A stretch of 45,712 nucleotides of DNA from a virus: the IMG/VR virus record IMGVR_UViG_3300032322_002184, positions 1 to 45,712 of that record. One strand, 5' to 3'. Below the pieces are notes generated by a model. The model was not told where the DNA came from, did not search any database, and saw nothing but the letters and a program-made list of their open reading frames with translations. This document shows, piece after piece, positions 3,495 through 22,600 of the stretch; within the stretch, counting starts at the first letter, position 1; every line of letters starts with the position of its first letter. A program made the translations under genes and the position numbers.

Positions 3495-3642
3495 CCAAAT
3501 CCGCATCATTGACAAAGTTGGATTGTTTCCAGAAACCAAAGGTAAAGCACGTTGGGTGACAGTTAAGTCCTACAATCATGCAATGGAAATCATTGCTGAG
3601 CAAACCAAACTTGGCAATGAAGCAGTCATCGTATTCTGGTAA
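3487..3642 (+). CDS. Small unknown protein (51 aa)
   Basis: The frame encodes MSNQIRIIDKVGLFPETKGK and ends NEAVIVFW. It overlaps the end of the HicA-like gene by eight bases, so the two are probably translated together. It has mixed beta and alpha character. It is shorter than typical HicB and lacks its N-terminal partial-RNase-H pattern, so it is not called an antitoxin, but its coupled position would suit one. Confidence 0.5.
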   Translation: MSNQIRIIDKVGLFPETKGKARWVTVKSYNHAMEIIAEQTKLGNEAVIVFW

Positions 3643-3645
3643 ATC

Positions 3646-3783
3646 ATGAACGAACTTGACTACCAACCCGACTTCGATTATAATCAAACAGAATGGCAAG
3701 ATGACATTCTGAGCATACTCAACGAAGAAACAATCACCGAAAATCTTGACTACCAAACCCATGAACTTCTCAAAAGTTTCTGA
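3646..3783 (+). CDS. Small acidic unknown protein (45 aa)
   Basis: The frame encodes MNELDYQPDFDYNQTEWQDD and ends HELLKSF, 45 aa, strongly acidic. The start is three bases after the preceding stop and the 3' end overlaps the next gene by 23 bases. No domain. Its reality rests on operon position and tight packing. Confidence 0.4.
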   Translation: MNELDYQPDFDYNQTEWQDDILSILNEETITENLDYQTHELLKSF

Positions 3784-4057
3784 TACGTTTCCCAAACGAT
3801 TTGTCGATGATCTTGATGACATGCTGACAGATAGTACCTCCAATGGATGTACTGATTTACTTGATGATCTGCTGCAACTTATCAGCGAACGACTGGTAGA
3901 ATTGAACGACTATTATACAACCAATCTCAATAGCGTGCAACACTACCAACGCCAAATCATGGAACGCAAAGTAAAGTCTCCAGTGCAGCAAGATCGTTAT
4001 ACTGATGTGGTGAAGTTTCTGGATGATGATACCCAAGTCGCACCAGATTATTGTTAG
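3761..4057 (+). CDS. Unknown acidic protein (98 aa), end of operon 4
   Basis: The 98-aa protein starts MNFSKVSDTFPKRFVDDLDD and ends DDTQVAPDYC. It is acidic, with a Leu-rich helical core (DLLDDLLQLISERLVELNDYY). The frame opens at a TTG at 3746, but the ATG at 3761 is the likely start. It is the last gene before the long non-coding region with the DnaA-type boxes. No recognisable function. Confidence 0.6.
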   Translation: MNFSKVSDTFPKRFVDDLDDMLTDSTSNGCTDLLDDLLQLISERLVELNDYYTTNLNSVQHYQRQIMERKVKSPVQQDRYTDVVKFLDDDTQVAPDYC

Positions 4058-4108
4058 TATGCTGAAAAGCGCATAGTATAATAAATGTTAAAATAAATGT
4101 TGTTAAGT

Positions 4109-4388
4109 TGTGGAAAAAGTGTTGTGGAAATTGTGGAAAACTCTGTGTTCTCTGAATGACTTCTAAATGCCTTATAATGCCCGCTGCCGTTGTCACCTTA
4201 GCGGTCGCACTATAAGACACACACAGTCTCACAGATCCCCCCCGTCCAGTTATAAGAACCACAGCACACTTTTCCACAGCAAACTTATAAGTTTTCCACA
4301 CGTTTTCCACAGTTTCTTATAAGTTTTCCACAAGCAGTTCGTTATACTTATAGTGACAGACTGCGATCTCGTTATAACCTGTGGAAAA
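4109..4388. other. Cluster of DnaA-type boxes; candidate replication origin or DnaA-binding locus
   Basis: Within 280 non-coding bases there are seven exact TTTTCCACA nonamers: minus-strand copies at 4109-4117, 4132-4140 and 4380-4388, plus-strand copies at 4270-4278, 4292-4300, 4303-4311 and 4324-4332. One near match lies at 4123-4131. TTTTCCACA is the DnaA box described for cyanobacterial chromosomes. TTATAAG or TTATAG motifs alternate with the boxes, at 4250, 4285, 4317 and 4348, spaced roughly 31-35 bases apart. A hairpin CCGCT/AGCGG (4181-4204) lies between the two groups. The whole gap 4058-4462 holds no convincing gene. The role is inferred: origin, DnaA titration or DnaA-controlled promoter. 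Confidence 0.6.
4284..4332 (+). repeat. 17-bp direct repeat, two copies, each containing a DnaA box
   Basis: CTTATAAGTTTTCCACA occurs at 4284-4300 and again at 4316-4332, a period of 32 bases or about three helical turns. An extra TTTTCCACA box at 4303-4311 lies between them. The regular phasing would place bound proteins on the same face of the DNA. Confidence 0.8.
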
Positions 4389-4462
4389 CTTTCGTTATCA
4401 TTGATGGGAATGTGTTCGCCCTTATAGTTACACACCATCCACACAGTTCCTAACAGTAACTC

Positions 4463-4639
4463 ATGAGCACTTCGTTGATGATCAATGCACTTCGCCTCGG
4501 TAACACTGGGCACGAGATCTTGAACATTCTAGATGCACTCGTGTCTGATGACAAGTCTACCACATCTGACAGTGATTGTCAAGTCGTTTATAATGCTGCT
4601 GGCAAACAGTTGGCAACAGTGGAGACTGTGCAGTTCTAA
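4463..4639 (+). CDS. Small unknown protein (58 aa)
   Basis: The frame encodes MSTSLMINALRLGNTGHEIL and ends ATVETVQF, 58 aa, after the DnaA-box region. The first half is an amphipathic helix and the second is polar with a short strand. It has base composition like the upstream small genes, not like the AT-rich island downstream. No family recognised. It is the last gene of the early block. Confidence 0.5.
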   Translation: MSTSLMINALRLGNTGHEILNILDALVSDDKSTTSDSDCQVVYNAAGKQLATVETVQF

Positions 4640-4658
4640 GCAGTTCTTATAGTTATTC

Positions 4659-4710
4659 ACCCCGTTCGTTCATTGTCACTTATTGACAGTGTTTGGGCGG
4701 GGTTTCTTAT
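4659..4710 (+). terminator. Possible terminator after the early small-gene block
   Basis: ACCCCG (4659-4664) can pair with CGGGGT (4698-4703), with an inner hairpin TGTCA/TGACA (4674-4678 and 4684-4688), followed by a short T-rich tract. The stem has unpaired internal stretches and the T tract is interrupted, so this is a weak call. Confidence 0.35.
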
Positions 4711-4785
4711 AGCCCTGGCGGGCGATGCCTAAAGCTAAAAACGCTAACTACCCTAACCTACAACGAACCAAAAACGCGAAAGAGA

Positions 4786-4916
4786 TATAAGGTGTTTCAA
4801 AAAATTTTTCAGGTATAAGAAATTCGTAGAGGTATTATAAGGTATTTCAAAAAATTTTTCAGGTATATATACTACTATAGGGATTTCAATAAATCACAAA
4901 TTTTTTTTCGAGGTAT
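4786..4916 (+). repeat. Triplicated leader repeat ahead of the SGNH gene cassette
   Basis: A 31-bp unit, TATAAGGTGTTTCAA followed by AAAATTTTTCAGGTATA, occurs at 4786-4816 and again at 4836-4866 with one mismatch, exactly 50 bases apart. A third, diverged unit runs from TATAGGG (4876) to AGGTATAAA. Its AGGTAT (4911-4916) is again exactly 50 bases after the previous one and serves as the ribosome binding region of the gene at 4919. Each unit holds an A-tract/T-tract junction, probably bent DNA. It could be a promoter or protein-binding array; the rest of the 4640-4785 gap shows nothing else clear. Confidence 0.7.
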
Positions 4917-4918
4917 AA

Positions 4919-5698
4919 ATGCATTATAACATTTTATTCAATGGGTGTAGTTTTACCGATGGTTCAGAGCTCGAAGGAATTGATAACGATTTAGAGCATA
5001 AAAAAACTCATAGGTTTTCTCATTTGGTTGCTGAACACTATGGTAAGACTTATATAAATATGGCATTAGCTGGAAAAAGTAATGATTGGATTATAGAGCA
5101 AACTATAAATTGGCTTGAAGATGGAAATACTTGTGATTTGGCAGTCATTCAATTTACAGATGAACGAAGATTTCTGTTATATTATGATGATGATGATCAT
5201 AAAAAAGATATACGACCAAAACAATATGATGTTATGGGACCAATGAGACAATATAAGAACCCTATCTTGCAGCAGGTATTAAATTCTAGTGAGGTTAATG
5301 AAAAACGTTTAGTAGCAAACATATATTTTAAAAATATATACACTAGATTTATGGGACAACAACAATATTATAAAAATTTATTTTTTGTTAATAATTATTT
5401 TAAAAGTAAAAATATTCCTATAATTTTTTTAAAAATGAAAGAAGAAGTAAGTAAAGATTTTGGATGGAAACTTCTTTGCAAAGATATAAAAATAAAAAAT
5501 ATGGGAGGAGATATTCTACCGTCTTGGTCTAGTGATAAAGAAGAAAAAAAATATTATTGTATGGATTATACTCACAAATACAACCATAACAAAGAACAGC
5601 GGTTTGTACATTTAAGTGGAGCTCATCCAAACGAATTAGGACATCAAAAAATTGCAGATTATATTATTTCAGAAATAAACAATGCAAATCTCATATGA
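4919..5698 (+). CDS. SGNH/GDSL-hydrolase-like protein, paralogue 1 (259 aa)
   Basis: Block I is NGCSFTDG with the nucleophile Ser11. Block III is GKSNDWI with Asn55. The C-terminal block V is AHPNELGHQKIADYI with His236. These are the landmarks of SGNH hydrolases, which cleave or transfer acyl esters on lipids and glycans. The Asp normally three residues before the His is Ser233 here, so a Ser-His dyad or altered chemistry is implied. No signal peptide, so it acts in the infected cell's cytoplasm. It is first in a cassette of five paralogues, starts right after AGGTATAA, and is very AT-rich compared with the genes upstream. Closest paralogue here is 8154-8927 (shared SELEGI motif). Confidence 0.75.
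   Translation: MHYNILFNGCSFTDGSELEGIDNDLEHKKTHRFSHLVAEHYGKTYINMALAGKSNDWIIEQTINWLEDGNTCDLAVIQFTDERRFLLYYDDDDHKKDIRPKQYDVMGPMRQYKNPILQQVLNSSEVNEKRLVANIYFKNIYTRFMGQQQYYKNLFFVNNYFKSKNIPIIFLKMKEEVSKDFGWKLLCKDIKIKNMGGDILPSWSSDKEEKKYYCMDYTHKYNHNKEQRFVHLSGAHPNELGHQKIADYIISEINNANLI
5632..5671 (+). repeat. 40-bp direct repeat, copy 1 (3' end of SGNH paralogue 1)
   Basis: The 40 bases from CGAATTAGGACATC onward, coding ELGHQKIADYIIS, are identical to 6361-6400 in the next paralogue. The interval is 729 bases, close to one gene length. Confidence 0.9.
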
Positions 5699-5704
5699 AG
5701 ATTG

Positions 5705-6415
5705 ATGCATTATAATTTATTATTTTGCGGTTGTAGTTTTACTGAAGGACTATTTCCTGATAGTCGATTTTCCCATTTAGTATCGGATCATTTTAAATAT
5801 ACTCACGATAATATTGCGAAACATGGAATAAGTAATGATAAAATTGTAGAAAAAACAGTTGAATGGTTTGAAGCAGACAACACTGCAGATATTGCCATCA
5901 TACAATTTACACACAAAGCAAGAATAACTTGGTATAATACGTTTGAAGAAGAATTTGATTTTGCACCTGGAATTTTAAAAAACAAACAATACTTAAATAT
6001 ACCAGAAGTGTTTGATTACTTTTTGATCAATAATATTTGGAATGTTATTAGACAATATTATGAATTAATTTACTCTGAATATATGGGAGATCAAAATTTT
6101 TATAAAAACTTATTTGTCTTAGATAATTATTTTAAACAAAAAAATATAATACCCATTTACTTAACAATATGCAAAGCACCTCTACCAAATAAAGGTTGGT
6201 ATAAATTTTGTAAAGATATTAATATTCAACACATTATTCATGGAGGAACAACTGGGCATCCTGTATTAAATCCTGATAATAATAGTTTGATTGGTAATCC
6301 ACAAACAAATCCAGAAAATTTTGATGCTGAGTTATCAAAAATATCAAGAATTGGTCCAAGCGAATTAGGACATCAAAAAATTGCAGATTATATTATTTCA
6401 AAAATTAAAATTTAG
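5705..6415 (+). CDS. SGNH-like protein, paralogue 2, catalytic His replaced (236 aa)
   Basis: Block I is CGCSFTEG with Ser11, and a GISNDKIVEKT block III follows. In block V the family's HP is GP: the protein reads RIGPSELGHQKIAD with Gly217 where paralogues have the catalytic His. A later His (GH) remains. It is therefore probably inactive as a classical hydrolase, or uses another residue. The gene starts seven bases after paralogue 1; ATG 5705 is preferred over TTG 5702. The last 40 coding bases around ELGHQKIADYIIS are identical at DNA level to paralogue 1, which indicates recent duplication or gene conversion. Confidence 0.7.
   Translation: MHYNLLFCGCSFTEGLFPDSRFSHLVSDHFKYTHDNIAKHGISNDKIVEKTVEWFEADNTADIAIIQFTHKARITWYNTFEEEFDFAPGILKNKQYLNIPEVFDYFLINNIWNVIRQYYELIYSEYMGDQNFYKNLFVLDNYFKQKNIIPIYLTICKAPLPNKGWYKFCKDINIQHIIHGGTTGHPVLNPDNNSLIGNPQTNPENFDAELSKISRIGPSELGHQKIADYIISKIKI
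6361..6400 (+). repeat. 40-bp direct repeat, copy 2 (3' end of SGNH paralogue 2)
   Basis: Identical to 5632-5671. The rest of the two genes differs widely at DNA level, so the perfect identity is local. Confidence 0.9.
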
Positions 6416-6429
6416 AACTTGTATAGATT

Positions 6430-7452
6430 ATGAGTAATAGTAAAAAACCATTTATATTTGGTTGTGGTGCTGGGTGGTGTGGAACAACTTCACTGTACAT
6501 GACTTTGGTTGAGAATGGATATCTTCATGGAGGATTTACAAAAGAAGATACATTTTTAAGTAATCTCTTTAGAGAACCTCAATTAAATGATAGAGATTAT
6601 AATAAATTTTTGAAGCTCATTACGTATAGTGAAGAAATTCGATTTGGAGCACCATATACAAGAATTCAAGATGGAGTTGTTGTTGATGTATGTAATACCG
6701 AAAAATATTTAAGTCCATTACGCAAATTTACTAAATCCCAATTAGAATATATTTTTTCATTACCATTGACAGCAGAAAAATATATTGAGTACCATACCTT
6801 ACTGTCTGAGTATAGTGATGATTTTTTTGCTGCCACTGGAGATTTCAATAATACAAATTTCATCGATTTATGGGAATATGAGCAACAATGTGATTTGATT
6901 ATTAATAAATTAAGTGAAACTCATAATATTAAATTTTTGATGATATTAAGAGATCCGATCAGAGCTTTCTTTTCTGTTGCCAATTCACAATTTTACAGGG
7001 AAAAAATACCTAATATTACTAAGTATAACTCCGTTAAAGAATATATGTGGGAACAAGCGGATGTTTATTTAAACAATCCAATCAATCCTTGGCATGATTA
7101 TGGGAAGGTTGCAAAAAAATTTAAAGATAAATTTGGAAACAATTTCCATTATGTCATTATGGAAGATTTTTTTAGTTCTCAAAATAATGAAGTGCAGCGA
7201 TTAGAGAAATTTCTTAATACAAAGATTACTAGCATTTATCCTTGTAGCTTTGTTCCAGATAAAGGGGTACACGCTTTAAGAGACGGGAGAAAGTCAGTAT
7301 TAGTAGATCAGTGGAATAATGATAAAGAAAAATTATCTGATGAGTTGTATCTATTCATTAAAAGACATATGCAAGAAGTCTATGATGAATTTGAAGACTT
7401 ACATGGAGGTTTACCTAACGATTGGGGAATACCAATTGATTATGGATACTAA
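6430..7452 (+). CDS. Sulfotransferase family protein, copy A (340 aa)
   Basis: Near the N-terminus FGCGAGWCGTTSLYMTL (residues 10-26) forms the PAPS 5'-phosphosulfate loop. The KE pair at 38-39 follows at the position typical of the heparan-sulfate-type family. RDPIRAFFS, with Arg174-Asp175-Pro176, is the PAPS 3'-phosphate motif. Such enzymes move sulfate from PAPS to a sugar, lipid or tyrosine hydroxyl. The C-terminus ends HGGLPNDWGIPIDYGY and is nearly shared with the minus-strand paralogue 10798-11769. There is no signal or membrane anchor, unlike Golgi enzymes, so it is cytosolic. It sits between SGNH paralogues 2 and 3, so it probably works on the same substrate (inference). Confidence 0.8.
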   Translation: MSNSKKPFIFGCGAGWCGTTSLYMTLVENGYLHGGFTKEDTFLSNLFREPQLNDRDYNKFLKLITYSEEIRFGAPYTRIQDGVVVDVCNTEKYLSPLRKFTKSQLEYIFSLPLTAEKYIEYHTLLSEYSDDFFAATGDFNNTNFIDLWEYEQQCDLIINKLSETHNIKFLMILRDPIRAFFSVANSQFYREKIPNITKYNSVKEYMWEQADVYLNNPINPWHDYGKVAKKFKDKFGNNFHYVIMEDFFSSQNNEVQRLEKFLNTKITSIYPCSFVPDKGVHALRDGRKSVLVDQWNNDKEKLSDELYLFIKRHMQEVYDEFEDLHGGLPNDWGIPIDYGY

Positions 7453-7528
7453 AATGAAAATATAATGATGAGGTTCCAGATTTCATTAAACCAGGACATA
7501 TAACTAAAAGAGGTTTCATAAGATTATA

Positions 7529-8164
7529 ATGCACATATTATTTAATGGATGTTCATACACCTGGGGAGATGAATTAGAGAATAGACTTGAAGATCGTTTT
7601 AGTACACTTGTTGCTAATCATTATCAAGCAGAACATGCTAACATTTCTGATTGTGGACGAAGCAATGATGCAATCGCTCGCACAACAATGGAATGGTTTG
7701 CAGATGGTAATACGACAGATTTAGCAATTATTCAATGGACGATCATTTCTAGATTTGAAGGTTATGATGATTTAAACAAACATTACTTTCATGTAACTGT
7801 TGATAAAAAAAGCAAATGGGAACATTTTTATAAGAATTATTATTATGATCAATTAGGAGTTGATTGTTTATTTAAAAACTATTATTTGTTAGAGCAGTTT
7901 TTTATAGCAAATAAGATTAAATATATTTTTATATTTCACGATTGTTGGAGTAATACGATTATAAATTTAGATAATGTATGGAAAAAATTTATTGTTAAGA
8001 AAGATTTTCATTTCTTAAGAGGAATGTTTTCTCAAAATTGCATCTTAATAAATCCATTGATTGATGATTGTCATTTTAAAGGAACCAAAGGTGGGCATCC
8101 AAACACATTAGGACATCAAGCAATTTCTAATTACCTCATCAAGGAGATAAACAATGCATTATAA
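7529..8164 (+). CDS. SGNH/GDSL-hydrolase-like protein, paralogue 3 (211 aa)
   Basis: Starts MHILFNGCSYTWGDELE, with nucleophile Ser9 in the GCSYT block. GRSNDAIARTT is block III and GGHPNTLGHQAISNYL is block V with His190. The residue three before the His is Lys, not Asp. It is the shortest of the intact members. The 3' end overlaps the next paralogue by 11 bases. The 76 bases before it hold no clear promoter. AGAGG at 7509-7513 is rather far from the ATG for a ribosome site. Confidence 0.75.
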   Translation: MHILFNGCSYTWGDELENRLEDRFSTLVANHYQAEHANISDCGRSNDAIARTTMEWFADGNTTDLAIIQWTIISRFEGYDDLNKHYFHVTVDKKSKWEHFYKNYYYDQLGVDCLFKNYYLLEQFFIANKIKYIFIFHDCWSNTIINLDNVWKKFIVKKDFHFLRGMFSQNCILINPLIDDCHFKGTKGGHPNTLGHQAISNYLIKEINNAL

Positions 8165-8927
8165 TCTATTATTCAATGGGTGTAGTTATACTCAAGGATC
8201 AGAACTTGAAGGAATTAATAAGGATTATGAGTATCGTAATCGTCATCGTTATAGTCATATTATAAGTGAAAGATTAGGAAAAACTTATGATAATATTAGT
8301 GTTGGAGGTGGTAGTAATGATCGTATTGTAAGAGAAACACTACATTGGTTTAATTCAGGAAATACATGCGATTTGGCAATTATCCAATGGACAGAAATTA
8401 CTAGAATAGAATACATATCCGCATATGCTGAACACCCTGTTAGTTTCAATCCTGAGTTCGTTGTTACTGAATGGAAGGGATGGGACAATGACACACCAAA
8501 AATCAAAAAAGATCATGAAGAAACTAAACTAGCACATGAGCATTTTTATAAGTACTTTTATAATTCTGCACTGGGAATTCATAATTTTTATAAAAACTTG
8601 TATATATTAGAACAATTTTTTGAAAAAAATAATATTAATTACTATATGATAAAATTATCACCAATTTTTTTGTGGGGGCGGAGGTTGAATCATAGCATAT
8701 GTCCAAGTGATAATCCAAATCACTATACAAATTTTTTTTGGGAAACTTTATGCAAACATGATTTTTTTAGTATTTCTTCCATTAGAAATACTATGATTAA
8801 TATTCAGGATAAAGAAAATTTTACTCCAAAACATTTAGGACATCGATTTTTAACTGGAACACATCCTAGTGAACTGGGACATCAAAGAATAGCAGATTTT
8901 ATTATCAATAAAATTGACACTAAATAA
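8154..8927 (+). CDS. SGNH/GDSL-hydrolase-like protein, paralogue 4 (257 aa)
   Basis: Starts MHYNLLFNGCSYTQGSELEG with Ser11. GGGSNDRIVRET is block III (Asn55). THPSELGHQRIADFI is block V with His237, and Thr replaces the usual Asp. It aligns with paralogue 1 with identical spacing over the first 60 residues. Of the five it keeps the most classical layout together with paralogue 1. It overlaps paralogue 3 by 11 bases, so they are translationally coupled. A Trp-rich middle (EWKGWDND) differs from the others and may shape substrate choice. Confidence 0.75.
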   Translation: MHYNLLFNGCSYTQGSELEGINKDYEYRNRHRYSHIISERLGKTYDNISVGGGSNDRIVRETLHWFNSGNTCDLAIIQWTEITRIEYISAYAEHPVSFNPEFVVTEWKGWDNDTPKIKKDHEETKLAHEHFYKYFYNSALGIHNFYKNLYILEQFFEKNNINYYMIKLSPIFLWGRRLNHSICPSDNPNHYTNFFWETLCKHDFFSISSIRNTMINIQDKENFTPKHLGHRFLTGTHPSELGHQRIADFIINKIDTK

Positions 8928-8947
8928 ATTTACTTATTACAGATATT

Positions 8948-9589
8948 ATGCACGTCAATATTTTTTCTAATGGTGATCAAGCTTTACATTGTGGTGGATG
9001 CGATGCTGAGATTGAAAAGGAAGATCACTATATTACACTAATTGGAAAAGCATTGAATAAGACTTATGAAGATATTTCTTTTAATGCTGCTTCAAATGAT
9101 CAAATAGTAAGAACAACAATCGATTGGTTTGAAAGTGGCAATACAGCAGACTTTGCAATCATTCACTTTACAGAAGATTTTAGAGTTGAATATATTGCAG
9201 GATATGATGATTATCAAACATGCACTCCATTTGGAGTAAAAAATCATCAATGGCCACTTGATAAGTATAAAGACCTTGATTATTATTATGAAAACATCTA
9301 TAATCCATTTATAGGTAGTGATAACTTTTATAAAAATCAATTTCTTTTAGAACTTTATTTTGAAAAGAAAAATATTCCATATTTCTTTTTAAAATTGATG
9401 AACTTTCCTACACCATCACCATGGAAAACTTGGTGTAAAATTGAACGTTTAACCGCAACTTGCTATGCTGGTGGATTGATTGATAGTGTGGAAAATAAAC
9501 CAGAAAATTATCACCATCATCATCCATCAGAAAAGGGACATCAAATTATTGCAGATTATATTTTAGATAATATTAGAGATCAATTTTAA
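8948..9589 (+). CDS. SGNH-like protein, paralogue 5, nucleophile lost (213 aa)
   Basis: The N-terminus aligns with the other four (MHVNIFSNG), but the GCS of block I reads GDQ, so the nucleophile Ser11 is Gln. The rest of the fold is kept: AASNDQIVRTTIDWFESGNT for block III and HHHHPSEKGHQIIADYIL for block V, with a run of four His. This is best read as a pseudoenzyme or binding subunit. It has no frameshift and is in tandem, so it seems maintained. The His run might bind metal (speculation). It is four bases before the radical SAM gene at 9593. Confidence 0.7.
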   Translation: MHVNIFSNGDQALHCGGCDAEIEKEDHYITLIGKALNKTYEDISFNAASNDQIVRTTIDWFESGNTADFAIIHFTEDFRVEYIAGYDDYQTCTPFGVKNHQWPLDKYKDLDYYYENIYNPFIGSDNFYKNQFLLELYFEKKNIPYFFLKLMNFPTPSPWKTWCKIERLTATCYAGGLIDSVENKPENYHHHHPSEKGHQIIADYILDNIRDQF

Positions 9590-9592
9590 GTC

Positions 9593-10801
9593 ATGGAAAA
9601 CAAAGTAATTTGTCCAATGCCTTTTATGAAGATCTATAATAACTTAGATGCTTCTGCATATACTCCATGCTGTTGGTCAAATCATTGGACTGATGAAACC
9701 AATGATATTACAAATACTTTGCCATTAGAACATTTTACTGGTGAAGTGTTTAGTCGTATTAGAAAAGAAATGTTAGAAGGTGAAAAAACAGAACTTTTAA
9801 AAGAATATTGTAATACCTGTTGGATGAGAGAAAAAGACTTTGGACATTCTCCTAGAATGAAGTTTAATGAATTTATTGATTATGATGTTTATCAAAATTT
9901 TGATCACAATGGAAGAATAATTGATAATGATGAAAGATTTATTCAAGTAGGAATAAATGTTTATGGAAATCATTGCAATTTAGAATGTTATGAGTGTTTG
10001 CCAGATAATTCTTCTTCTAGATGTGCTGTAATGAACAAACTTGATGATCCCAAATTAAATGAACAGTTTGTTTATGATCCTAAACGTGTAAAATCTTTTA
10101 ATAAATTATCTAAAGAACATTTTAGAAATATTGTTGATGAAATCGTATCTTACGGCAAAAAAATTCGCAGTATCGATGTTGTTGGTGGAGAACCGATGCT
10201 TATGAAAGATCACTTTTATCTTTTAGACAAATTGATCGAAAGTGGACATTCTAAAAATATAGAAATCAACTATACATCAAATATGACACTAATGACAGTA
10301 TCAAAAATGAAAAAATATTTTGATAATTTTTGTCACATTAGAATTCAATGGAGTATTGATGCATTGAAAGAAAGAAATTACTGGTTAAGATATCCTACTA
10401 ATTGGGATCAAACTATACAAAATTGTGAGGAAGTAAGAGATTATTTGATTAAGACTGGAAAGGGAACAATTCAAGGCACACTTACGCCAAGTTTGTTTAG
10501 TATAATCACTCTTAAAGAAACATATGATTGGTTACTGGTCAACGATTATGTTCTTCTCGATCAAATGCCTATGAATACGATTGATAATCCAAATTTCTTA
10601 AGTCCTCAACACTTACCACAGGAACTAAAAGAAAAGATTGCTCCAAAGATTTCAACATTATCAAAGATACATTATAATCAATTGATGTCTGAACGAGATG
10701 AAGATTGTTTTGAACTAGCCATTCAATATGCAGATAATTTAGATAACATGAGAGGAACTGACTGGAAAACAACTTTTCCAGAAATAGCACAATACGCTTA
10801 A
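9593..10801 (+). CDS. Radical SAM protein, copy A (402 aa)
   Basis: The CxxxCxxC cluster CNLECYEC (Cys128, 132, 135) binds the 4Fe-4S cluster that cleaves S-adenosylmethionine. VVGGEPMLMKDH matches the GGEP SAM-binding strand. An N-terminal Cys set (Cys7, Cys26-Cys27, Cys73, Cys76) looks like an auxiliary cluster domain of the twitch/SPASM sort, placed before the core. The C-terminus ends RGTDWKTTFPEIAQYA. Proteins of this kind occur in cyanophages without a known substrate. It is a full-length paralogue of 13865-15076. It converges with and overlaps by four bases the minus-strand sulfotransferase. Confidence 0.8.
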   Translation: MENKVICPMPFMKIYNNLDASAYTPCCWSNHWTDETNDITNTLPLEHFTGEVFSRIRKEMLEGEKTELLKEYCNTCWMREKDFGHSPRMKFNEFIDYDVYQNFDHNGRIIDNDERFIQVGINVYGNHCNLECYECLPDNSSSRCAVMNKLDDPKLNEQFVYDPKRVKSFNKLSKEHFRNIVDEIVSYGKKIRSIDVVGGEPMLMKDHFYLLDKLIESGHSKNIEINYTSNMTLMTVSKMKKYFDNFCHIRIQWSIDALKERNYWLRYPTNWDQTIQNCEEVRDYLIKTGKGTIQGTLTPSLFSIITLKETYDWLLVNDYVLLDQMPMNTIDNPNFLSPQHLPQELKEKIAPKISTLSKIHYNQLMSERDEDCFELAIQYADNLDNMRGTDWKTTFPEIAQYA

Positions 10802-11769
10802 TATCCATAATCGATAGGTGATCCCCAATCTGCAGGTAAACTACCATGAAAATTTTCAAATTCTAAGTATTCCTTCTTAAAATCTTCTCTTTCTCTATAC
10901 CTGTTGTACATTTCTGAAGTTAAAATATGATGATCAGAATCCCATTGATCTTTCAAGTATTGGTCATCCTTTGGTGCATTAATTCCTTTATCTGGTACAT
11001 AGCAGCAAGGATACATTTGATCTATTTTAATACTCAAAAAATTTTCTAATTTTTCCTTTTCTTTTTGATTATTTGGATTATATAAATCTTCCATAATTAA
11101 ATAACAAACATTTTCTTTACCAAAAACTTTGTAATAAGTATTAATTTTAGATACAAAATTCATAATGGCAGATTTTTCAAATGACTTAATTATATCACCT
11201 GTTGTGTATTTAAAATTGAAAGAGTGTCTTGCTGTAAGATAGTAAAAATTTCTTGTTTCATCTAGATTAGTAAAAGATCCTGCATGTGACCATGCTCTTC
11301 TAATAGGATCTCTTAAAGAAACAAGACACTTAATCTCAAAATATTTTGACATTTTATTCACTATTTCTATAAGATTTTGTTCACTCAACGTCATTGATAT
11401 GTTAGAAAAATCTCCAACTGCTTGGTAATTTCCTTCAAGATATTGATATAAATTTAAATAATATTTAATATACTTTTCTAAAGACTTTGATGGTCCGAGA
11501 ATATAATTAAAATCTTTCTCAGTAATTTTGTTTAGTACCCCATGAGGATCTCTTTTATCATCAAAATTTCCGCATAATAATAATTTTTCCAAAAAAGAAT
11601 TATAAGTATCTAATTTTACATTATTAGTTTCATTAATATAAAAAGTATGCAACGCTTGAATTTCTTTAGTTGGTCCTGTATGGACATACTTCATATTTTT
11701 TAACGTATGATAAAGTGATGTAGTTCCAGACCATCCAATACCCAAAGAAAAAATAAATTTAGGTTTCAT
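10798..11769 (-). CDS. Sulfotransferase family protein, copy B, minus strand (323 aa)
   Basis: SLGIGWSGTTSLYHTL (residues 8-23) is the PAPS 5'-loop and TGPTKEI contains the KE pair (35-36). LRDPIRRAWSHAGSF (Arg153-Asp154-Pro155) is the 3'-phosphate motif. The C-terminus HGSLPADWGSPIDYGY nearly equals that of the + strand copy. It is the only minus-strand gene in the window. It converges on the radical SAM gene with a 4-base overlap and diverges from the HNH gene across 68 bases (11770-11837), which must hold promoters for both. Inversion or separate insertion would explain the orientation. Tandem or inverted paralogues could sulfate different acceptors. Confidence 0.8.
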   Translation of the reverse strand: MKPKFIFSLGIGWSGTTSLYHTLKNMKYVHTGPTKEIQALHTFYINETNNVKLDTYNSFLEKLLLCGNFDDKRDPHGVLNKITEKDFNYILGPSKSLEKYIKYYLNLYQYLEGNYQAVGDFSNISMTLSEQNLIEIVNKMSKYFEIKCLVSLRDPIRRAWSHAGSFTNLDETRNFYYLTARHSFNFKYTTGDIIKSFEKSAIMNFVSKINTYYKVFGKENVCYLIMEDLYNPNNQKEKEKLENFLSIKIDQMYPCCYVPDKGINAPKDDQYLKDQWDSDHHILTSEMYNRYREREDFKKEYLEFENFHGSLPADWGSPIDYGY

Positions 11770-11837
11770 TTATATCCATCTATTGTCCCATTTAAAATTT
11801 ATTTATAGATACTATTGGAACTCTCCATTAGAAATAA

Positions 11838-12227
11838 ATGCTACTCTCTTCCCCAGATGAGTATCTTTATCAATTACAAGCGAGCAGTAAGGCAGACGCA
11901 ATAAGATTATGGAGAAAAGCGATCAAGGAAGCATGGAATAACTGTTGTGCATATTGTGGACAAAATAAAGATCAGATGACAATTGATCATGTCATCCCAC
12001 AATCATTAGGTGGCACAGACGAATTAATGAATGTAGTTTGTTGCTGTGAAGATTGCAACCGCGATAAGTCACATACTGAAGTTGAAATTTGGTATTTTCA
12101 ACAATACTTTTTTTCTCAAGAAAGATGGGATATAATAGAACAGTGGCGAACACCAAAATCAAATGGTTCAAAAAAAAGATATATAAGAGGTAAGAATGGT
12201 ATTCCAACAAAATCAGTGGTACAATGA
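11838..12227 (+). CDS. HNH endonuclease (129 aa)
   Basis: CAYCG (Cys37, Cys40) and CEDCNRDKS (Cys70, Cys73) form the zinc ribs. TIDHVIPQSLGGTDELMNVV carries the Asp50-His51 catalytic pair and the Asn of the HNH finger. The basic C-terminus (SNGSKKRYIRGKNG) may add DNA contacts. Free-standing HNH nucleases in T4-like phages often act as homing enzymes that spread themselves and flanking DNA. It lies in the island at the switch in gene direction. The stop overlaps the next ATG. Confidence 0.8.
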   Translation: MLLSSPDEYLYQLQASSKADAIRLWRKAIKEAWNNCCAYCGQNKDQMTIDHVIPQSLGGTDELMNVVCCCEDCNRDKSHTEVEIWYFQQYFFSQERWDIIEQWRTPKSNGSKKRYIRGKNGIPTKSVVQ

Positions 12228-12382: not shown

Positions 12383-12477
12383 ACCCGATTGCAAAACTAA
12401 TTAGATGGATTAAAGGTGAATACAAATTGTGGAAACTTAGGCAGCAAGATCCTTACATTTATGAAGATGAAGATTGA
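12379..12477 (+). CDS. Very small basic/acidic protein (32 aa)
   Basis: The frame encodes MNPIAKLIRWIKGEYKLWKL, an amphipathic basic helix with Trp residues, and an acidic tail ending IYEDED. The helix could lie on a membrane surface. The start overlaps the preceding stop and the gene ends two bases before the carbamoyltransferase start, so translation coupling is plausible. It is short enough that the call relies on packing and composition. Confidence 0.45.
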   Translation: MNPIAKLIRWIKGEYKLWKLRQQDPYIYEDED

Positions 12478-12479
12478 AC

Positions 12480-13865
12480 ATGATTGGTATAAGTGAAGGA
12501 TTTCATGATGCTGCAATATCAGTAGTAAATGCTGGTAAGATTAAGTTTGCTGCTCATGCAGAACGATATTCTAGAGTAAAGCATGATAAACATCTAAATC
12601 TATCAGTATGTGCAGAAGCACTGCTTCATACTGAAGATGATGTTGTTGCATTCTATGAACGTCCTTGGTTGAAGCGTACTCGTCAATTGTTTGCTGGACA
12701 ATATAAGAGTGCATTTAAAGAAAGAAATATCTACATCACTCCTAATCATTATTACTCACATCATCTCTCCCATGCTGCTGCAGCATTTCAGACATCACCC
12801 TATCCAGAAGCTGCATGTGTTGTCGTAGACAGTATTGGTGAATGGGATACTGCTTCAATCTGGCACGCTCAGATGGTGGAGGGATGTGCTAAGTATAAAA
12901 AAGTATGGTCACAGAAGTATCCTAAGTCTATAGGATTGTGGTATTCTTCTTATACGAAATGGGCAGGTTTGAGACCCTTAGACGAAGAATACATCTTTAT
13001 GGGTATGGCAGCGTTTGGGAAACCCTTATACGTCGAACAAGCGCGTAACTTGCTCTCTAGAAATAACCACAAGGGCTTTTCCACCTCTCTTGAAGGAAAT
13101 CCAGAAGACAACTCTAAGAGTGCAGAGGTTGTTCTTTATGGGGCACTGAAAAAAATTTTCAATAGAGCAAGGCAATATAGTAATAATATTTGTTATGGAG
13201 GAGGGGTTGCTTTAAATTGCGTCGTAAACGCTAAGCTACAAAACGAGCATCCGTTCATGTGGATTATGCCTAATCCTGGAGATGCTGGAGCTTCCTTAGG
13301 GGCAGCTTTATTGTCCTATGGTGGTAAAGTCATCTTCACCCCATATTTGGGTGAAAACATTCAAAAAACGATTGACCCAAAAGAAGTTGTTGACGCATTA
13401 CTTCACAAAGGCATGTGTGGGGTTGCGAATGGTCCTGCTGAGTTTGGACCACGGGCTTTGGGTAATAGAAGTCTTCTAGCGGATCCTAGAACTCTTAGGA
13501 TGAAAGATTTAGTTAACACAGTAAAGAAGAGACAAAAGTTTCGTCCATTTGCTCCTGCCATATTAGAAGAACATTGTCAGGACTATTTTCGTATGCCACC
13601 AGACAGTCGTTATATGTCATTTGTATACGACTGTAAGCGTCCTGATGAGATCCCAGCATGTGTACACGTAGATAATACTGCTAGGGTTCAAACAGTTCCC
13701 ACATGGTCTTCTAGTATTCTTAGAGAAATACTTGAGTGTTGGTACGAACGTACAGGTTGCCCAGTTCTTTTAAATACGTCTTTAAATATTCGCGGAATGC
13801 CTATCGTCAATACTTGGCAAGATGCAGAACAGTTTTCAGAAAAGTATGATGTTGAGGTTTTTTAA
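12480..13865 (+). CDS. Carbamoyltransferase, NodU/CmcH family (461 aa)
   Basis: Transfers a carbamoyl group from carbamoyl phosphate, via carbamoyl-adenylate, to a hydroxyl on a sugar or small molecule. Family landmarks are MIGISEGFHDAAISVV, AERYSRVKHDK, HHLSHAAAAFQ, a GGGVALNCVVNAKL strand, MPNPGDAGASLGAAL, then the C-terminal domain FGPRALGNRSLLADPR and KKRQKFRPFAPAIL, ending in LLNTSLNIRGMPIVNT. It is shorter than most NodU or TobZ proteins, chiefly in the middle. The frame opens at TTG 12474 but ATG 12480 matches the family start. Its base composition is less AT-rich than the SGNH and radical SAM genes on either side, so it may have a separate origin. Stop and next start share one base (TAATG). 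Confidence 0.88.
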   Translation: MIGISEGFHDAAISVVNAGKIKFAAHAERYSRVKHDKHLNLSVCAEALLHTEDDVVAFYERPWLKRTRQLFAGQYKSAFKERNIYITPNHYYSHHLSHAAAAFQTSPYPEAACVVVDSIGEWDTASIWHAQMVEGCAKYKKVWSQKYPKSIGLWYSSYTKWAGLRPLDEEYIFMGMAAFGKPLYVEQARNLLSRNNHKGFSTSLEGNPEDNSKSAEVVLYGALKKIFNRARQYSNNICYGGGVALNCVVNAKLQNEHPFMWIMPNPGDAGASLGAALLSYGGKVIFTPYLGENIQKTIDPKEVVDALLHKGMCGVANGPAEFGPRALGNRSLLADPRTLRMKDLVNTVKKRQKFRPFAPAILEEHCQDYFRMPPDSRYMSFVYDCKRPDEIPACVHVDNTARVQTVPTWSSSILREILECWYERTGCPVLLNTSLNIRGMPIVNTWQDAEQFSEKYDVEVF

Positions 13866-15076
13866 TGGAAAATAAAGTTTTTTGTTCAAAACCATTTAAA
13901 GAAATATTCAATCATCCAGAATTAAATTATGCTCCTTGTTGTTGGGCTTATCCTGCGTCTAAAGAAAATCCAAATACTCGTTTACCAATCGATCATTTTA
14001 ATGGTGAAGATTTCAAAAGGCTTAGAAGAGAAATGCTTCAGGGCAAAAAAACAGATTTTCTATGTTCTTACTGCAAATATTGTTATGATAGAGAAGATGA
14101 AAATATAGAATCTCCAAGAATGAAAAATGCCAATATTAGTAAGACTATATTGGATAGTTTTAATGCTGATGGATCATTAAAACCTAATCAAAATAAATTT
14201 ATTAATATTGCAATAAATGCGTATGGTGACAATTGCAATTTAGAATGTTACGGATGCAACCCACTTGTATCCACCTCCAGAAAAAGTGCAATGGATAAAT
14301 TGCACAATCAAATTATTGACAACAATATTGATATTTTAGATTTTTATGGTAATCTTAAATACAAATGTTTTGATAAAAGTGAAAGTGTTAAATTTGAAGA
14401 TATTGTAGATCAGATAGTAGAATATGCTGACAATATTTCCTCGTTGACAATTGTTGGTGGAGAACCAATGTTAATGAAAAAGCATTTTATATTATTGGAC
14501 AAATTAATAGAAGTTAATAAATCTAGAAACATTACTTTAAATTATGTTTCAAATATGACTTTGATGAATTTAAATAATATGAAAATTTATTTTGAAAATT
14601 TTTCAAAAACAAATATTCAATGGAGTGTTGATGCATTAGGAGAAAGGAACTATTGGTTAAGATATCCAACCAATTGGGAACAAACAACAAAAAATGTTTT
14701 TGAAATTGAAAAATATTTTAATACTTATAAAAAAGGATCTATTTTTGCAACTATTACTCCAAGTATGCTTGGAATTATAACTTTGAGAAAAACTTATAAT
14801 TGGTTGTTGACTAGGAATTTAATTAATAAAAAAGATCCAATTATTAATTTAATGGTTAAACCAGAACTATTAAGAACAAGAAATTTACCAGAAGAAATAA
14901 AAAATAATATAAAATATGATATAAAGATTATTTCAGAATTACATTATGAGGATTTAATTAAACCAAGAAATGACACCCAATTTAAATTAGCAATAAAATA
15001 TTTTGATTTATTGGATAAATCTAGAGGAACAGATTGGAGATCCACATTTCCAGAAGTTGCAAAGTATGCAAATTGA
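13865..15076 (+). CDS. Radical SAM protein, copy B (403 aa)
   Basis: Paralogue of 9593-10801 along its whole length. CNLECYGC (Cys124, 128, 131) is the SAM cluster site and VGGEPMLMKKH the SAM-binding strand. N-terminal Cys7, Cys25-Cys26, Cys67, Cys70 and Cys73 form the auxiliary cluster region. Its end, RGTDWRSTFPEVAKYAN, mirrors copy A. It is coupled to the carbamoyltransferase by a one-base overlap. Two copies within about 3 kb, separated by unrelated genes, suggest duplication with functional split. DNA is far more AT-rich than the carbamoyltransferase it follows. Substrate unknown. Confidence 0.8.
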   Translation: MENKVFCSKPFKEIFNHPELNYAPCCWAYPASKENPNTRLPIDHFNGEDFKRLRREMLQGKKTDFLCSYCKYCYDREDENIESPRMKNANISKTILDSFNADGSLKPNQNKFINIAINAYGDNCNLECYGCNPLVSTSRKSAMDKLHNQIIDNNIDILDFYGNLKYKCFDKSESVKFEDIVDQIVEYADNISSLTIVGGEPMLMKKHFILLDKLIEVNKSRNITLNYVSNMTLMNLNNMKIYFENFSKTNIQWSVDALGERNYWLRYPTNWEQTTKNVFEIEKYFNTYKKGSIFATITPSMLGIITLRKTYNWLLTRNLINKKDPIINLMVKPELLRTRNLPEEIKNNIKYDIKIISELHYEDLIKPRNDTQFKLAIKYFDLLDKSRGTDWRSTFPEVAKYAN

Positions 15077-17320: not shown

Positions 17321-17725
17321 GTGCCTCTTCAAAAAATTTCTAGAGGTTTCAAAGACATTTCATTGTCAATGAAACGTCATCCAGTTACAAATGATATCCT
17401 TCCTCTAAAAAATGAGGATGCAATCAAGCGTTCTGTTCAAAATTTAGTAAGAATTCAAGTTGGAGAGGTCTTTTTTAACAATCTAATTGGCACTAGAATT
17501 AGTGGAGCACTATTTGAATTAGCAACAAGCGATTTTACTGCTCCAATAAAAACCGAAATTGAAACTGTTATTACAAACTTTGAGCCAAGAGTTGTACTAA
17601 AAAGCGTTGAAGTTGATCCAGATCCTGATAATAATGCTCTAGAAGTCACAATATCTTATGACATAGTTGGTTTATCAACGCCTACACAGACAGTTACCTT
17701 CATCTTAGAACCAACTAGACTATAA
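17321..17725 (+). CDS. gp25: Baseplate wedge protein gp25 (134 aa)
   Basis: Contains the gp25/lysozyme-like baseplate fold: GFKDISLSMKRHPVTNDI, the IKRSVQNLVRIQVGEVFFN helix and the beta-rich second half ending TQTVTFILEPTRL. T4 gp25 has a similar length. It joins the wedge core that triggers sheath assembly and is related to the T6SS wedge protein TssE. The start is a GTG at 17321 without a strong ribosome site. The stop overlaps the gp6 start by one base (TAATG). The order gp25 - gp6 is conserved in T4-like phages. Confidence 0.9.
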   Translation: MPLQKISRGFKDISLSMKRHPVTNDILPLKNEDAIKRSVQNLVRIQVGEVFFNNLIGTRISGALFELATSDFTAPIKTEIETVITNFEPRVVLKSVEVDPDPDNNALEVTISYDIVGLSTPTQTVTFILEPTRL

Positions 17726-19605
17726 TGGCACTAACACAATTTACAAATTTAAATTTTGAGGATATAAAATCCTCAATTAAGGATTATCTAAGAGCAAATA
17801 CAAACTTTACAGACTATGACTTTGAAGGATCTAATCTTTCAGTCATCATAAATTTGCTTGCATATAATTCTTATATCACCGCCTACAATACAAACATGGT
17901 GGTGAATGAAACTTTTATTGATTCTGCAACATTGCGTGAGAATGTTGTATCTCTTGCACGCAATATTGGATATGTACCACGATCAAAACGTGCTGCAAAA
18001 GCAACTGTAGACTTTTTTGTTAGTGGAATTTCTACAACAACAGATACAATTTCATTCCAACCAGGGGTTGTTGCGAATGGAAGTGTTTCGGATGTCAATT
18101 TTATCTTTTCTCTACCAGAAAAAGTTACTGTAGCAGCGCAAAATGGGTCTTCTTTTGGTAGTTTAGAAATTTATCAAGGTCAATATTTAGAAAATTCTTG
18201 GACAGTTAATAATTCTCAACCAAATCAGCGTTATATTATCCCAAATGATAGTGTTGATACTTCAACTTTGCGCGTAAAAGTAAAAAATACGTCTACAGAT
18301 ACAACTTTTACCGAGTATCAACTCGTCGATAATATCCTTGGTATCACTTCTACATCAAATATTTACTTAATTCAAGAAACTACAGACGAAAAATACGAAA
18401 TTTTGTTTGGTGATGGTATTTTTGGTAAGAAATTACAATCAGGAAACGTAATTACTGCATCTTATATTAAGACAAATGGCAAAGATGGTAATGGAGTAAC
18501 TGATTTTAGGTTTGCTGGAACAATTTTTGATGAAAATAACGCAAATATAACCTCATTTACCGCTGATTTAACAGCACAAGTACCATCTGAAAACGGAGAT
18601 GAGATAGAACCTGTCGAAAGTGTCAAATACTTTGCCCCTAGACTGTATTCATCTCAGCATAGAGCAGTAACTGCAAGTGATTATGAGGCAATTTTACCAA
18701 CATTGTATCCAAATATTGAAAGTGTGAGTGCTTATGGTGGAGAAGATCTAACTCAACCCCAATATGGACGAGTTTTTATTGCTGCTAAACCAAGAAATGG
18801 ATCTTTCTTATCAGATTTCACTAAAAAGCAACTTTTACAATCCTTAAAAAACTATTCTGTTGCTGGAATTGTTCCTCAGTTTGAGGACTTAAAGTATCTT
18901 TATGTAGAAATTGACAGTTATGTTTACTATAACGCAAATTTTGTTGGTGATCCAAATAATCTGAAAACTGATGTTATTTCTGCAATTACTTCTTATGCTA
19001 GAAGTTCAGAAATGAACCAATTTGGGGGAAGATTTAAATATAGTAAAACCTGTTCACTGATTGATAACGTCAATACTGCTATTACTTCAAATATTACAAC
19101 AGTAAGGATTAGAAGAGATCTTGTTGCACGTATAAATCAACCCGCACAATATGAATTGTGTTTTGATAATGAATTCTATACAGGTAAGAAAAATTATAAT
19201 GTTAAGAGTACAGGATTTAGCGTATTTGGTATAGATGGTACATGTTATTTTTCTGATGAAGTCGTAAATGGATCTAATATCGGAAATCTTTTCCTTTTCC
19301 AAATTCTTTCCGATGAAGAGACGAATATTTTATCAACCAAATTTGGAACAGTCAATTATAGCACTGGTGAAATCCTTATAGATACTGTAAATATTACATC
19401 AACCAGTTTAGCAGACAATATTATTGAAGTTCAAGCAATTCCACTATCAAATGATGTTTTAGCGAGAAAGGAATTGTATTTGCAATTAGATGTTTCTAAG
19501 AGCAATTTCTACATGAAGCAAGATAGCATCTCTTCAGGTGCAAATACTTCAGGAACAAGATTTGATATTCAATCAAGCTATCAAAACGGTAAGAAAACAA
19601 GATAA
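17725..19605 (+). CDS. gp6: Baseplate wedge protein gp6 (626 aa)
   Basis: Starts MALTQFTNLNFEDIKSSIKD and includes GSNLSVIINLLAYNSYITAY, the N-terminal wedge domain, and the long VPRSKRAAKATVDFFV region. Two gp6 copies form the inner ring of each T4 wedge; the J-like family has a similar order. Length is close to T4 gp6 (660 aa). The middle (FAPRLYSSQHRAVTASDYE) matches the J-like conserved segment. It is coupled to gp25 and followed after three bases by the next structural gene. High certainty from sequence and position. Confidence 0.92.
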   Translation: MALTQFTNLNFEDIKSSIKDYLRANTNFTDYDFEGSNLSVIINLLAYNSYITAYNTNMVVNETFIDSATLRENVVSLARNIGYVPRSKRAAKATVDFFVSGISTTTDTISFQPGVVANGSVSDVNFIFSLPEKVTVAAQNGSSFGSLEIYQGQYLENSWTVNNSQPNQRYIIPNDSVDTSTLRVKVKNTSTDTTFTEYQLVDNILGITSTSNIYLIQETTDEKYEILFGDGIFGKKLQSGNVITASYIKTNGKDGNGVTDFRFAGTIFDENNANITSFTADLTAQVPSENGDEIEPVESVKYFAPRLYSSQHRAVTASDYEAILPTLYPNIESVSAYGGEDLTQPQYGRVFIAAKPRNGSFLSDFTKKQLLQSLKNYSVAGIVPQFEDLKYLYVEIDSYVYYNANFVGDPNNLKTDVISAITSYARSSEMNQFGGRFKYSKTCSLIDNVNTAITSNITTVRIRRDLVARINQPAQYELCFDNEFYTGKKNYNVKSTGFSVFGIDGTCYFSDEVVNGSNIGNLFLFQILSDEETNILSTKFGTVNYSTGEILIDTVNITSTSLADNIIEVQAIPLSNDVLARKELYLQLDVSKSNFYMKQDSISSGANTSGTRFDIQSSYQNGKKTR

Positions 19606-19608
19606 CAG

Positions 19609-22600
19609 ATGATCGAAACCTCCCTATCCAAAGTCAAAATCAATGAAATTATTCAGAGCCAAATCCCTGAATACATTGATGTCGAAAATCCTTATTTTGG
19701 AGAATTTTTAAGGCAATATTATTACTCGCAGGAGTATCAGGGAGGTCCTGTTGATATTGCAGACAATCTAGTCGAATATAAAGGATTAGATTATCTAAAC
19801 ACAAGAAATTTAATTGGATTTACATCCCTAACATCATACATCAGTGGCGTTGATGAAACCATTTATGTAAAATCAACAGATGGTTGGCCAGCACAATGGG
19901 GTCTACTAAAAATTGATGATGAAATCATCACTTATACTGGTATTGGGTCTACATCATTTACTGGGTGTGTTCGTGGATTTAGTGGTATTGAAAAAAATAC
20001 CAAAACCAATCAACCAGAGTATCTAACATTCACTTCTAGTGGTATTTCAACCCATGCATCAAATGCACGAGTTGAAAATCTCAGTAATGTCTTTCTTAAT
20101 GAATTTTTAAAAAAATTAAAGACATTAGTTCTTCCAGGATTTGAAAATAGAAATTTATATGGCGATTTAAACGAAAGCAATTTCATTAGACAAGCAAAAG
20201 ATTTCTATAAATCTAAAGGAACAGAAGAAGCATTTAAAATTCTCTTCAAAGCATTGTATGCTGAACAGGTTGAAATGGTTCAACCTCAAAAATTTGTAAT
20301 TAAACCGTCAGATGCTGATTATATTAAAAATGATGTATTAGTTTGTGAAGTTGTCAGTGGTAACCCAATTAAAATTGAAGGACAAACACTATTTCAAAAT
20401 ACAACACCACTTCAAACTAGTGGATCAATTTATAATGTTGAAAAGGCAATCATAGATGGTAAAACATACTATAAAATTGCCATTTCTAAAGGAACTACAC
20501 TCGGGAAGTTTCTCCAGGTAGGAAAAACATTTGTTACTAAAGCATCTGGTACTGGATCTACAATCATCAATGTTGATAGTACAGTCGGATTTGGTACAAC
20601 AGGAGATCTTACATATAAAGACTTACAGTTAAGTTACACAGATAAAAACTATACCCAATTCTTAGGTGTTTCTGGTATTACAACATCAGTAGGCATTGGG
20701 TCTACTGTTTTTGCGTATGGTCTTCAAGCATATTCTTACGAAGATGGAAATCTAGATAATCCAGTTTATCTAAACATTGTAGGAACAATTAATAATTTTA
20801 ATGGTAGTGCATTAAATCAACAAGAAGGAAGCAGCATTAATGTATCTACTCTAGGTATAGAGCAAAAAGATACAAGATTTACTTCATGGATATACAACAC
20901 ATCAACAAAGTATATTATTGATAAAATCAATTCTTTGGGTTCTAATGTATATGAGTTTACTTTCTTCTCAACTCATGTTCTTTATGTTGGAGATACTCTT
21001 GATATTGTAGATGAAGACAATAATATTACTGTAGGCACAATATTACAAATTATTAATAATAAAACTATCCAAGTTAATTGTGCATCTTTAGATTTATCCA
21101 AAAAATATTTTATAAGAAGGCAATTAAAGACAAACAAAGATTATACAGCAGATATTCAAAATACATATTCATCTGGTGACACTGTTTATGTTGCTTCTAA
21201 TAGCATCCCACATTGGAATATAAATCCTCAAAAGAGAATTAGAAATTTCACCACATCTGGAGTTACAACATTTACAGAAATTTCAGTTACTGATCATCAT
21301 TTTAATGATGGTGAACTTGTAGTATATAAACCATCGGGTACAAATGGTGCAGTATCTGGATTAAGCACTAATCAGTCATATTATATTCGTAAGATTGATG
21401 ACAATACAATTTCTCTTGCATATTCATTAGAGAATGCTCGTAGGGGTCAATATATTTCTATATTTGGATCTACAGATTTATCTGGAATTACTACACATTC
21501 ATTAACACCATACAATGTAGGGTTTTCTACAATTGGAGCACAAAAGTTATTAAGAAAGTTTCCTGTTCCTGAGTATAGTGAGACTAAATCTGAAACTATT
21601 CAAGGAGGAATTGGATTATTTGTTAACGGTGTTGAAATTTATTCTTATAAGTCAACAGACAAAGTTTATTATGGTCCAATTCAATCAGTTAGTGTCCTCA
21701 ATGAAGGTGGTAATTTTGACGTAATTAATCCACCAAGACTTTCAGTTTATCAAGATGGACACTCTGGTGCTGGTTCTTCAGTAATTGCACACGTATCTGG
21801 ATCAATTCAAGAAATTCTTGTCGATACTGAAGGTTTAGATTATACTACCACGCCAACTGTCTATATCTCTGGAGGGAATGGTTCTGCTAGTGCAGAAGCA
21901 AAGATGAAATTAGTCTCCCATCAGGTAGACTTTGATAGCACTAGCACTGGTGGAATTGTAGATACTGTTACTGACAAAATTACCTTCCCAGAAGCACATG
22001 GATTTAAGCATGGTGAGGAAATCATTTACAATACTCGTGGAACAACTCCAATCGGTCTTGGAACCACTCCAGGGACGCTTATTAATGGGTCTTCGTATTA
22101 TGTTATAAAGAACAATGACTATACCATTTCATTGGCGGAAACAAGGCAAAAAGCCCTTGCTGGAATTGCAACATTAGATATCACTTCTAATGGTCAAGGT
22201 TTCCATGCATTTTCGACAAAGGAAAGAAGACTAAAAGTAGATAAAGTTTATATTATTGAAAACGGCACATTTTATAACAGAGAAAATACAACAACTCCTG
22301 TTGGTATTAATACCTTTACGGATGTAATTACAATCAATAATCATGGATATAGTTCTGGAGAAGAGTTAAAGTATTCTACAACAGGTCTATCAATTGGTGG
22401 ATTGAGTACAACAACCAAATACTATGCAATAAAAATCAATGAAGATCAGTTTAGAGTTTCTATCTCTACCAGTCTAACAAATTATGTTGGACTAAGTAGT
22501 GTTGGATCTGGATATCATGTATTCAATTATCCGCCAATTTTAGTCACTCTAAATGGTCCACAAGGTATAACTACAGCAAATGCTACTGTAACACCAATCG

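Follow-up and report, generated by a model that had tools for sequence, protein, structure and literature searches.

An array of DnaA boxes of the cyanobacterial type lies at positions 4109-4388 of the window, the whole 45,712-nucleotide stretch of viral DNA analysed here. To judge by its sequence, it is very probably a DnaA assembly site. The preferred reading is that host DnaA assembles there, most likely as part of the phage replication origin (probability about 0.5).

The DnaA-box array and its probable ligand

The array comprises seven exact TTTTCCACA nonamers and one copy with a single mismatch, in both orientations (Table 1). The initial annotation had placed this cluster in 280 bases of non-coding DNA and had recognized the nonamer as the cyanobacterial DnaA box, and all of this holds. 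The array lies between two plus-strand ORFs, of 103 aa (3746-4057) and 58 aa, and is overlapped only by unsupported minus-strand ORFs and one 51-aa plus-strand ORF. TTTTCCACA is documented as the DnaA box of S. elongatus, Anabaena, Cyanothece and most cyanobacteria surveyed, and the DnaA-origin interaction has been tested in vitro for cyanobacteria (PMC4674748). Taking the counts together with that consensus, the array has one feature expected of a DnaA-dependent origin of the oriC type, a cluster of boxes of the host consensus.

Table 1. Positions of the DnaA boxes and neighbouring features in the window.
Feature	Position	Strand	Remarks
DnaA box 1, TTTTCCACA	4109-4117	-	exact match
Near-match box, ATTTCCACA	4123-4131	-	one mismatch
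DnaA box 2, TTTTCCACA	4132-4140	-	exact match
DnaA box 3, TTTTCCACA	4270-4278	+	exact match; 22 bp to next box
DnaA box 4, TTTTCCACA	4292-4300	+	exact match; intact in 4/4 aligned relatives; 11 bp to next box
DnaA box 5, TTTTCCACA	4303-4311	+	exact match; lost in L576, L577 and L010; 21 bp to next box
DnaA box 6, TTTTCCACA	4324-4332	+	exact match; intact in 4/4 aligned relatives
DnaA box 7, TTTTCCACA	4380-4388	-	exact match; intact in 4/4 aligned relatives; convergent with box 6, 56 bp
CTTATAAG repeats between boxes 3-6	4284-4323		CTTATAAGTTTTCCACA twice, 32 bp apart
Intergenic region with DnaA-box array	4058-4462		between + ORFs 3746-4057 and 4463-4639
Small ORF, 58 aa, next downstream of array	4463-4639	+	partial matches in 5 viral contigs
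Conserved element of T4-like cyanophages, AAAAACGCTAACTACCCTAACCTACAACGAACC..., AACTACCCTAACCTACA	4733-4790	+	core in 18/20 complete genomes
AT-rich repeats, TATAAGGTrTTTCAAAAAATTTTTCAGGTATA (4786, 4836) and TTTTCGAGGTATAA (4905)	4786-4918	+	50 bp apart

Such a density of boxes is confined to this place. Whole-window shuffles give an expectation of 1.1 copies of TTTTCCACA, and the remainder of the 45.7 kb holds a single further exact copy, within an ORF (9487-9495, minus strand). In the local intergenic stretch of 406 bp seven copies were seen against about 0.009 expected, with a maximum of one to two in 20,000 random sequences. The reversed-pattern control had no matches in the window. The nonamer is therefore not equally dense elsewhere, either here or in the box-bearing complete genomes, which were also checked.

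The window represents part of a T4-like cyanomyovirus genome and carries the gp25-gp6-gp7-gp8 cassette of baseplate wedge genes, with gp25 at 17321, gp6 at 17725, further wedge genes after them and small ORFs upstream. Its gp6 is 69% identical to that of a marine single-cell virus and 47% to that of cyanophage ACG-2014f. Judged from this gene content, the host is cyanobacterial. Two very large ORFs occupy 19609-27807 and 32529-39521 (2732 and 2330 aa); the first comes after gp6 and is a candidate gp7. A low-GC island (5000-12000, 27-31%) lies between the array and the structural genes and contains a radical SAM protein, an HNH endonuclease and ORFs with no PHROG matches; a Nol-like carbamoyltransferase and a second radical SAM protein follow at 12474-15076. 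Rfam and tRNA searches gave no matches in the window, so the region is not explained by a known RNA family, and no simple terminators were found at 3600-5100.

The DnaA C-terminal domain was not found in any of the 20 phage genomes searched, whereas control genomes score. A phage-encoded DnaA was thus rejected for these 20 genomes, and host DnaA is the likely ligand. Upstream of dnaN, small AT-rich picocyanobacterium-like genomes have TTTTCCACA or the 8-mer TTTCCACA, with TTTTCCACA in some, and one larger genome has six exact copies of TTTTCCACA there, like S. elongatus. It is very unlikely that the boxes instead bind another phage or host protein preferring TTTTCCACA, with DnaA uninvolved. 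Although the lack of boxes in most Prochlorococcus phages examined would fit such a protein, both the exact 9-mer and the spacing phase match cyanobacterial DnaA arrays. A literature search, which covered few subscription journals, found nothing coupling cyanophages with DnaA boxes.

Distribution and conservation of the boxes

At least two exact boxes within 60 bp were found in 11 of 20 complete T4-like cyanophage genomes, at one locus per genome (S-PM2, Syn9, S-SM1, S-SM2, S-ShM2, Syn19, P-SSM7, S-CAM1, Syn1, S-SSM5 and DSL-LC02). At a density of roughly four boxes in 180 kb, boxes less than 60 bp apart are estimated to arise by chance in well under 1 in 100 genomes. The place is conserved as well, since the locus lies 0.5 to 3.7 kb upstream of a conserved non-coding element in ten of the 11; no exact match to the element core turned up in the eleventh, S-PM2. 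The array first noticed in this phage is real but not peculiar to this contig, as it recurs in about half of the T4-like cyanophages examined. Most boxed cultured relatives have only two to four boxes at the site.

No box pair was found in the other nine genomes (P-SSM2, P-SSM4, P-HM2, P-RSM4, P-TIM40, S-SSM7, Bellamy, Sf-FS3 and ACG-2014f). With about half of the relatives lacking it, the array cannot be indispensable for replication in the family. Box pairs occur in 10 of 14 Synechococcus phages versus one of six Prochlorococcus phages, a difference that is suggestive only (Fisher p = 0.05), the genomes being related. P-RSM4 retains the conserved block that follows the boxes in other phages, with a one-mismatch box, TTTTCCGCA, beside it.

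Three boxes of S-PM2 (19231-19264; 3732-3765 of the corresponding locus, L480) overlap annotated tRNA-Asn and tRNA-Leu genes. These tRNA calls may be doubtful. That the boxes are an accident of tRNA genes was judged unlikely; the conserved block follows the boxes in S-PM2 too.

Among four relatives aligned with the window (L573, L576, L577 and L010), identity within the boxes is 86-97% versus 63-88% outside, and in the most distant relative 86% versus 63%. The boxes at 4292, 4324 and 4380 are intact in all four. Three of them have lost the box at 4303, and in L010 two boxes 12 bp apart near 4109-4132 are present instead. This loss and the alternative pair in L010 appear to be a sign of turnover with function retained.

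Box phasing and conserved sequences downstream

In phage loci that had not been fetched by their boxes, spacing between same-orientation neighbours peaks at 11-12, 20-22, 42-43 and 52-53 bp and that between convergent neighbours at 13, 23-24, 34 and 56 bp. Relative to a 10.5-bp turn, the phase of same-orientation pairs is 0.28 bp in phages and 0.30 bp in cyanobacterial genome arrays, the latter set having been fetched with gaps of up to 30 bp. When each distinct distance was counted once, the phasing remained (p = 0.04 for phage same-orientation pairs, 0.0001 for phage convergent pairs and 0.0001 for the host). Similar peaks are seen in non-cyanobacterial bacteria that share the 9-mer; phasing is thus a mark of DnaA arrays generally and not of those of cyanobacteria alone. 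By this spacing analysis the phage arrays have a second feature expected of an origin, boxes phased for cooperative DnaA assembly.

In most boxed cultured phages TGTGGAAAA forms the last box, after which come AT-rich DNA and a conserved block around TTGTAGTCTTAGCACGC. Across 43 box-bearing loci with the conserved block, AT content is on average highest 20-40 bp from the start of the last box (0.73 vs 0.63). A profile of the block that excludes the boxes matched 88 distinct places among the loci examined, and at 52 of them an exact box lies no more than about 150 bp away (some of these loci had been retrieved through their boxes). The window's own copy of the block is degenerate, too diverged for this profile to detect at E 0.01.

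The conserved element begins about 350 bp beyond the array. It is non-coding and is followed by AT-rich repeats spaced at 50 bp. Of 20 complete cyanomyovirus genomes, 18 contain its core, CTAACCTACA: 16 have one copy, S-ShM2 and P-TIM40 two. The consensus of the element, derived from 168 sequences, is TTTaAAAAacgctAACTACCCTAACCTACAaaG. In the annotated regions read, the element lies upstream of baseplate wedge genes, in most cases gp25-gp6. Six single-sequence folds of the AACTACCC element revealed no common RNA fold. The element is possibly a late promoter, part of an origin or a packaging site. The three AT-rich repeats directly precede the ORF at 4919 and lie about 400 bp from the boxes; they are a possible unwinding element or possible promoters. 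The 259-aa ORF itself (4919-5698) found no relatives when used as a query.

The link between element and boxes also emerged from metagenomic contigs fetched by the element only, with DnaA not consulted (126 contigs, non-redundant and with sufficient sequence upstream). In a blind k-mer test of the 1.5 kb preceding the element, TTTTCCACA came out as the most enriched 9-mer, with 103 copies in 166 kb there versus 30 in 884 kb elsewhere, while the reversed-pattern control was nearly flat. At least two copies were present upstream of the element in 28 of the 126 contigs. In box-free contigs no replacement motif as strong as TTTTCCACA was found upstream of the element. Weaker enriched motifs there, AGTGTTAGT and GTATAAAGAAT, were seen in L132-L340.

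Origin, promoter or decoy

Three things favour an origin: the phasing of the array, the AT-rich DNA next to it in relatives, and an earlier prediction of a single theta origin for Syn9 (PMC2984593), a phage that itself carries a box pair. Cyanobacterial DnaA would bind the TTTTCCACA boxes on one face of the helix, and the complex would help to open nearby AT-rich DNA. The phage's own T4-type replisome could then start an early round of copying at the opened DNA, ahead of the switch to recombination-driven replication. That DnaA binds the array, that the strands open and that the site acts as an origin is what we infer from this arrangement. Against an origin stand the nine of 20 relatives with no box pair, the divergence of the block that follows the window's own boxes, and the fact that cyanomyoviruses encode a T4-type helicase and primase (PMC2984593) and have an annotated gp59 helicase loader, so that DnaA is not needed for helicase loading. 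No GC-skew switch was found at the site in six complete genomes, where the detrended extremes fall off the boxes, although the test is weak as nearly all genes are on one strand.

The main rival to an origin is a DnaA-responsive early promoter; a decoy is less likely. In the former case the DnaA-bound array would activate or repress an early promoter just downstream, acting as a switch that reads the state of host DnaA, and replication would perhaps be affected only via the transcript, as at the lambda origin. Behind the box pair of cultured phages come the conserved block, sequences resembling sigma-70 promoters and, in several, a similar small ORF (judged by eye), much as the 58-aa ORF follows the array in the window, and promoter-like sites at 3600-5100 exceed those in shuffles (10 vs 4.4). 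Lambda provides a precedent, with DnaA-box-like sites downstream of pO and stimulation of origin transcription by DnaA (PMC3985674). However, the promoter matches are to the consensus only, the distance from boxes to element varies (0.5 to 3.7 kb) and up to seven phased boxes exceed the needs of a simple switch, making a promoter unlikely as the main role of the array.

Multiple perfect consensus boxes, multiplied by phage copy number, might instead soak up host DnaA and halt host initiation, and titration sites such as E. coli datA are a precedent for DnaA-box decoys. Such a role is improbable. The two to four boxes of most boxed cultured relatives are few for the purpose, neither helical phasing nor fixed orientation patterns are needed for simple titration, and the sites stay at a single place in the genome. 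Moreover, when lytic T4-like phages shut down the host, they usually do so by other means.

Taking the array as part of an origin, the reading becomes more tentative when extended to the family. Many T4-like cyanophages might start replication at a conserved origin fired by host DnaA, on an oriC-like phased array that was captured or is a mimic and that some lineages, mostly of Prochlorococcus phages, have lost; this is put at a little under even odds. T4-like phages are a textbook case of self-sufficient replication. The sharing of the array by many relatives suggests that cyanophages borrow a host replication switch, although phages of the T4 type are believed to do without it. As the picocyanobacterial cell cycle follows the day-night cycle, a conserved host-initiator array would tie replication or early gene control of these abundant ocean phages to the host cell cycle, which could help to explain light-dependent infection. 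The loci of Syn9, S-SM1, S-SSM5, Syn19, P-SSM7 and S-ShM2 offer specific sites for studying how cyanomyoviruses begin replication.

Among known systems, E. coli datA is also a DnaA-box cluster outside the origin. Unlike datA, the cyanophage array is phage-borne, helically phased and conserved beside another element. The T4 origins oriA, oriF and oriG, from a related phage, resemble the array in their non-coding, AT-rich and promoter-like surroundings. T4 origins, whose hallmarks are a middle promoter with a MotA box and an unwinding element, use that promoter and an R-loop and are not known to contain DnaA boxes, unlike the cyanophage array. For middle-mode transcription, cyanomyoviruses are thought to rely on overlapping early and late promoters rather than on MotA (PMC2984593). 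In the lambda origin region, too, a phage carries DnaA boxes of its host close to putative early transcription (PMC3985674). Lambda, however, encodes an initiator of its own, O, and its sites are only box-like (PMC3985674), whereas the cyanophage boxes are perfect consensus copies with no known phage initiator. In sequence the array resembles chromosomal oriC of cyanobacteria (S. elongatus PCC 7942, Anabaena PCC 7120 and Cyanothece 51142), which carries several copies of the same 9-mer (PMC4674748), and arrays of TTTTCCACA in cyanobacterial genomes have the same helical spacing as the phage arrays (11-12 and 20-22 bp). Unlike cyanobacterial oriC, the phage array is found in a lytic phage, is not beside dnaN or dnaA, and has only a candidate unwinding element.
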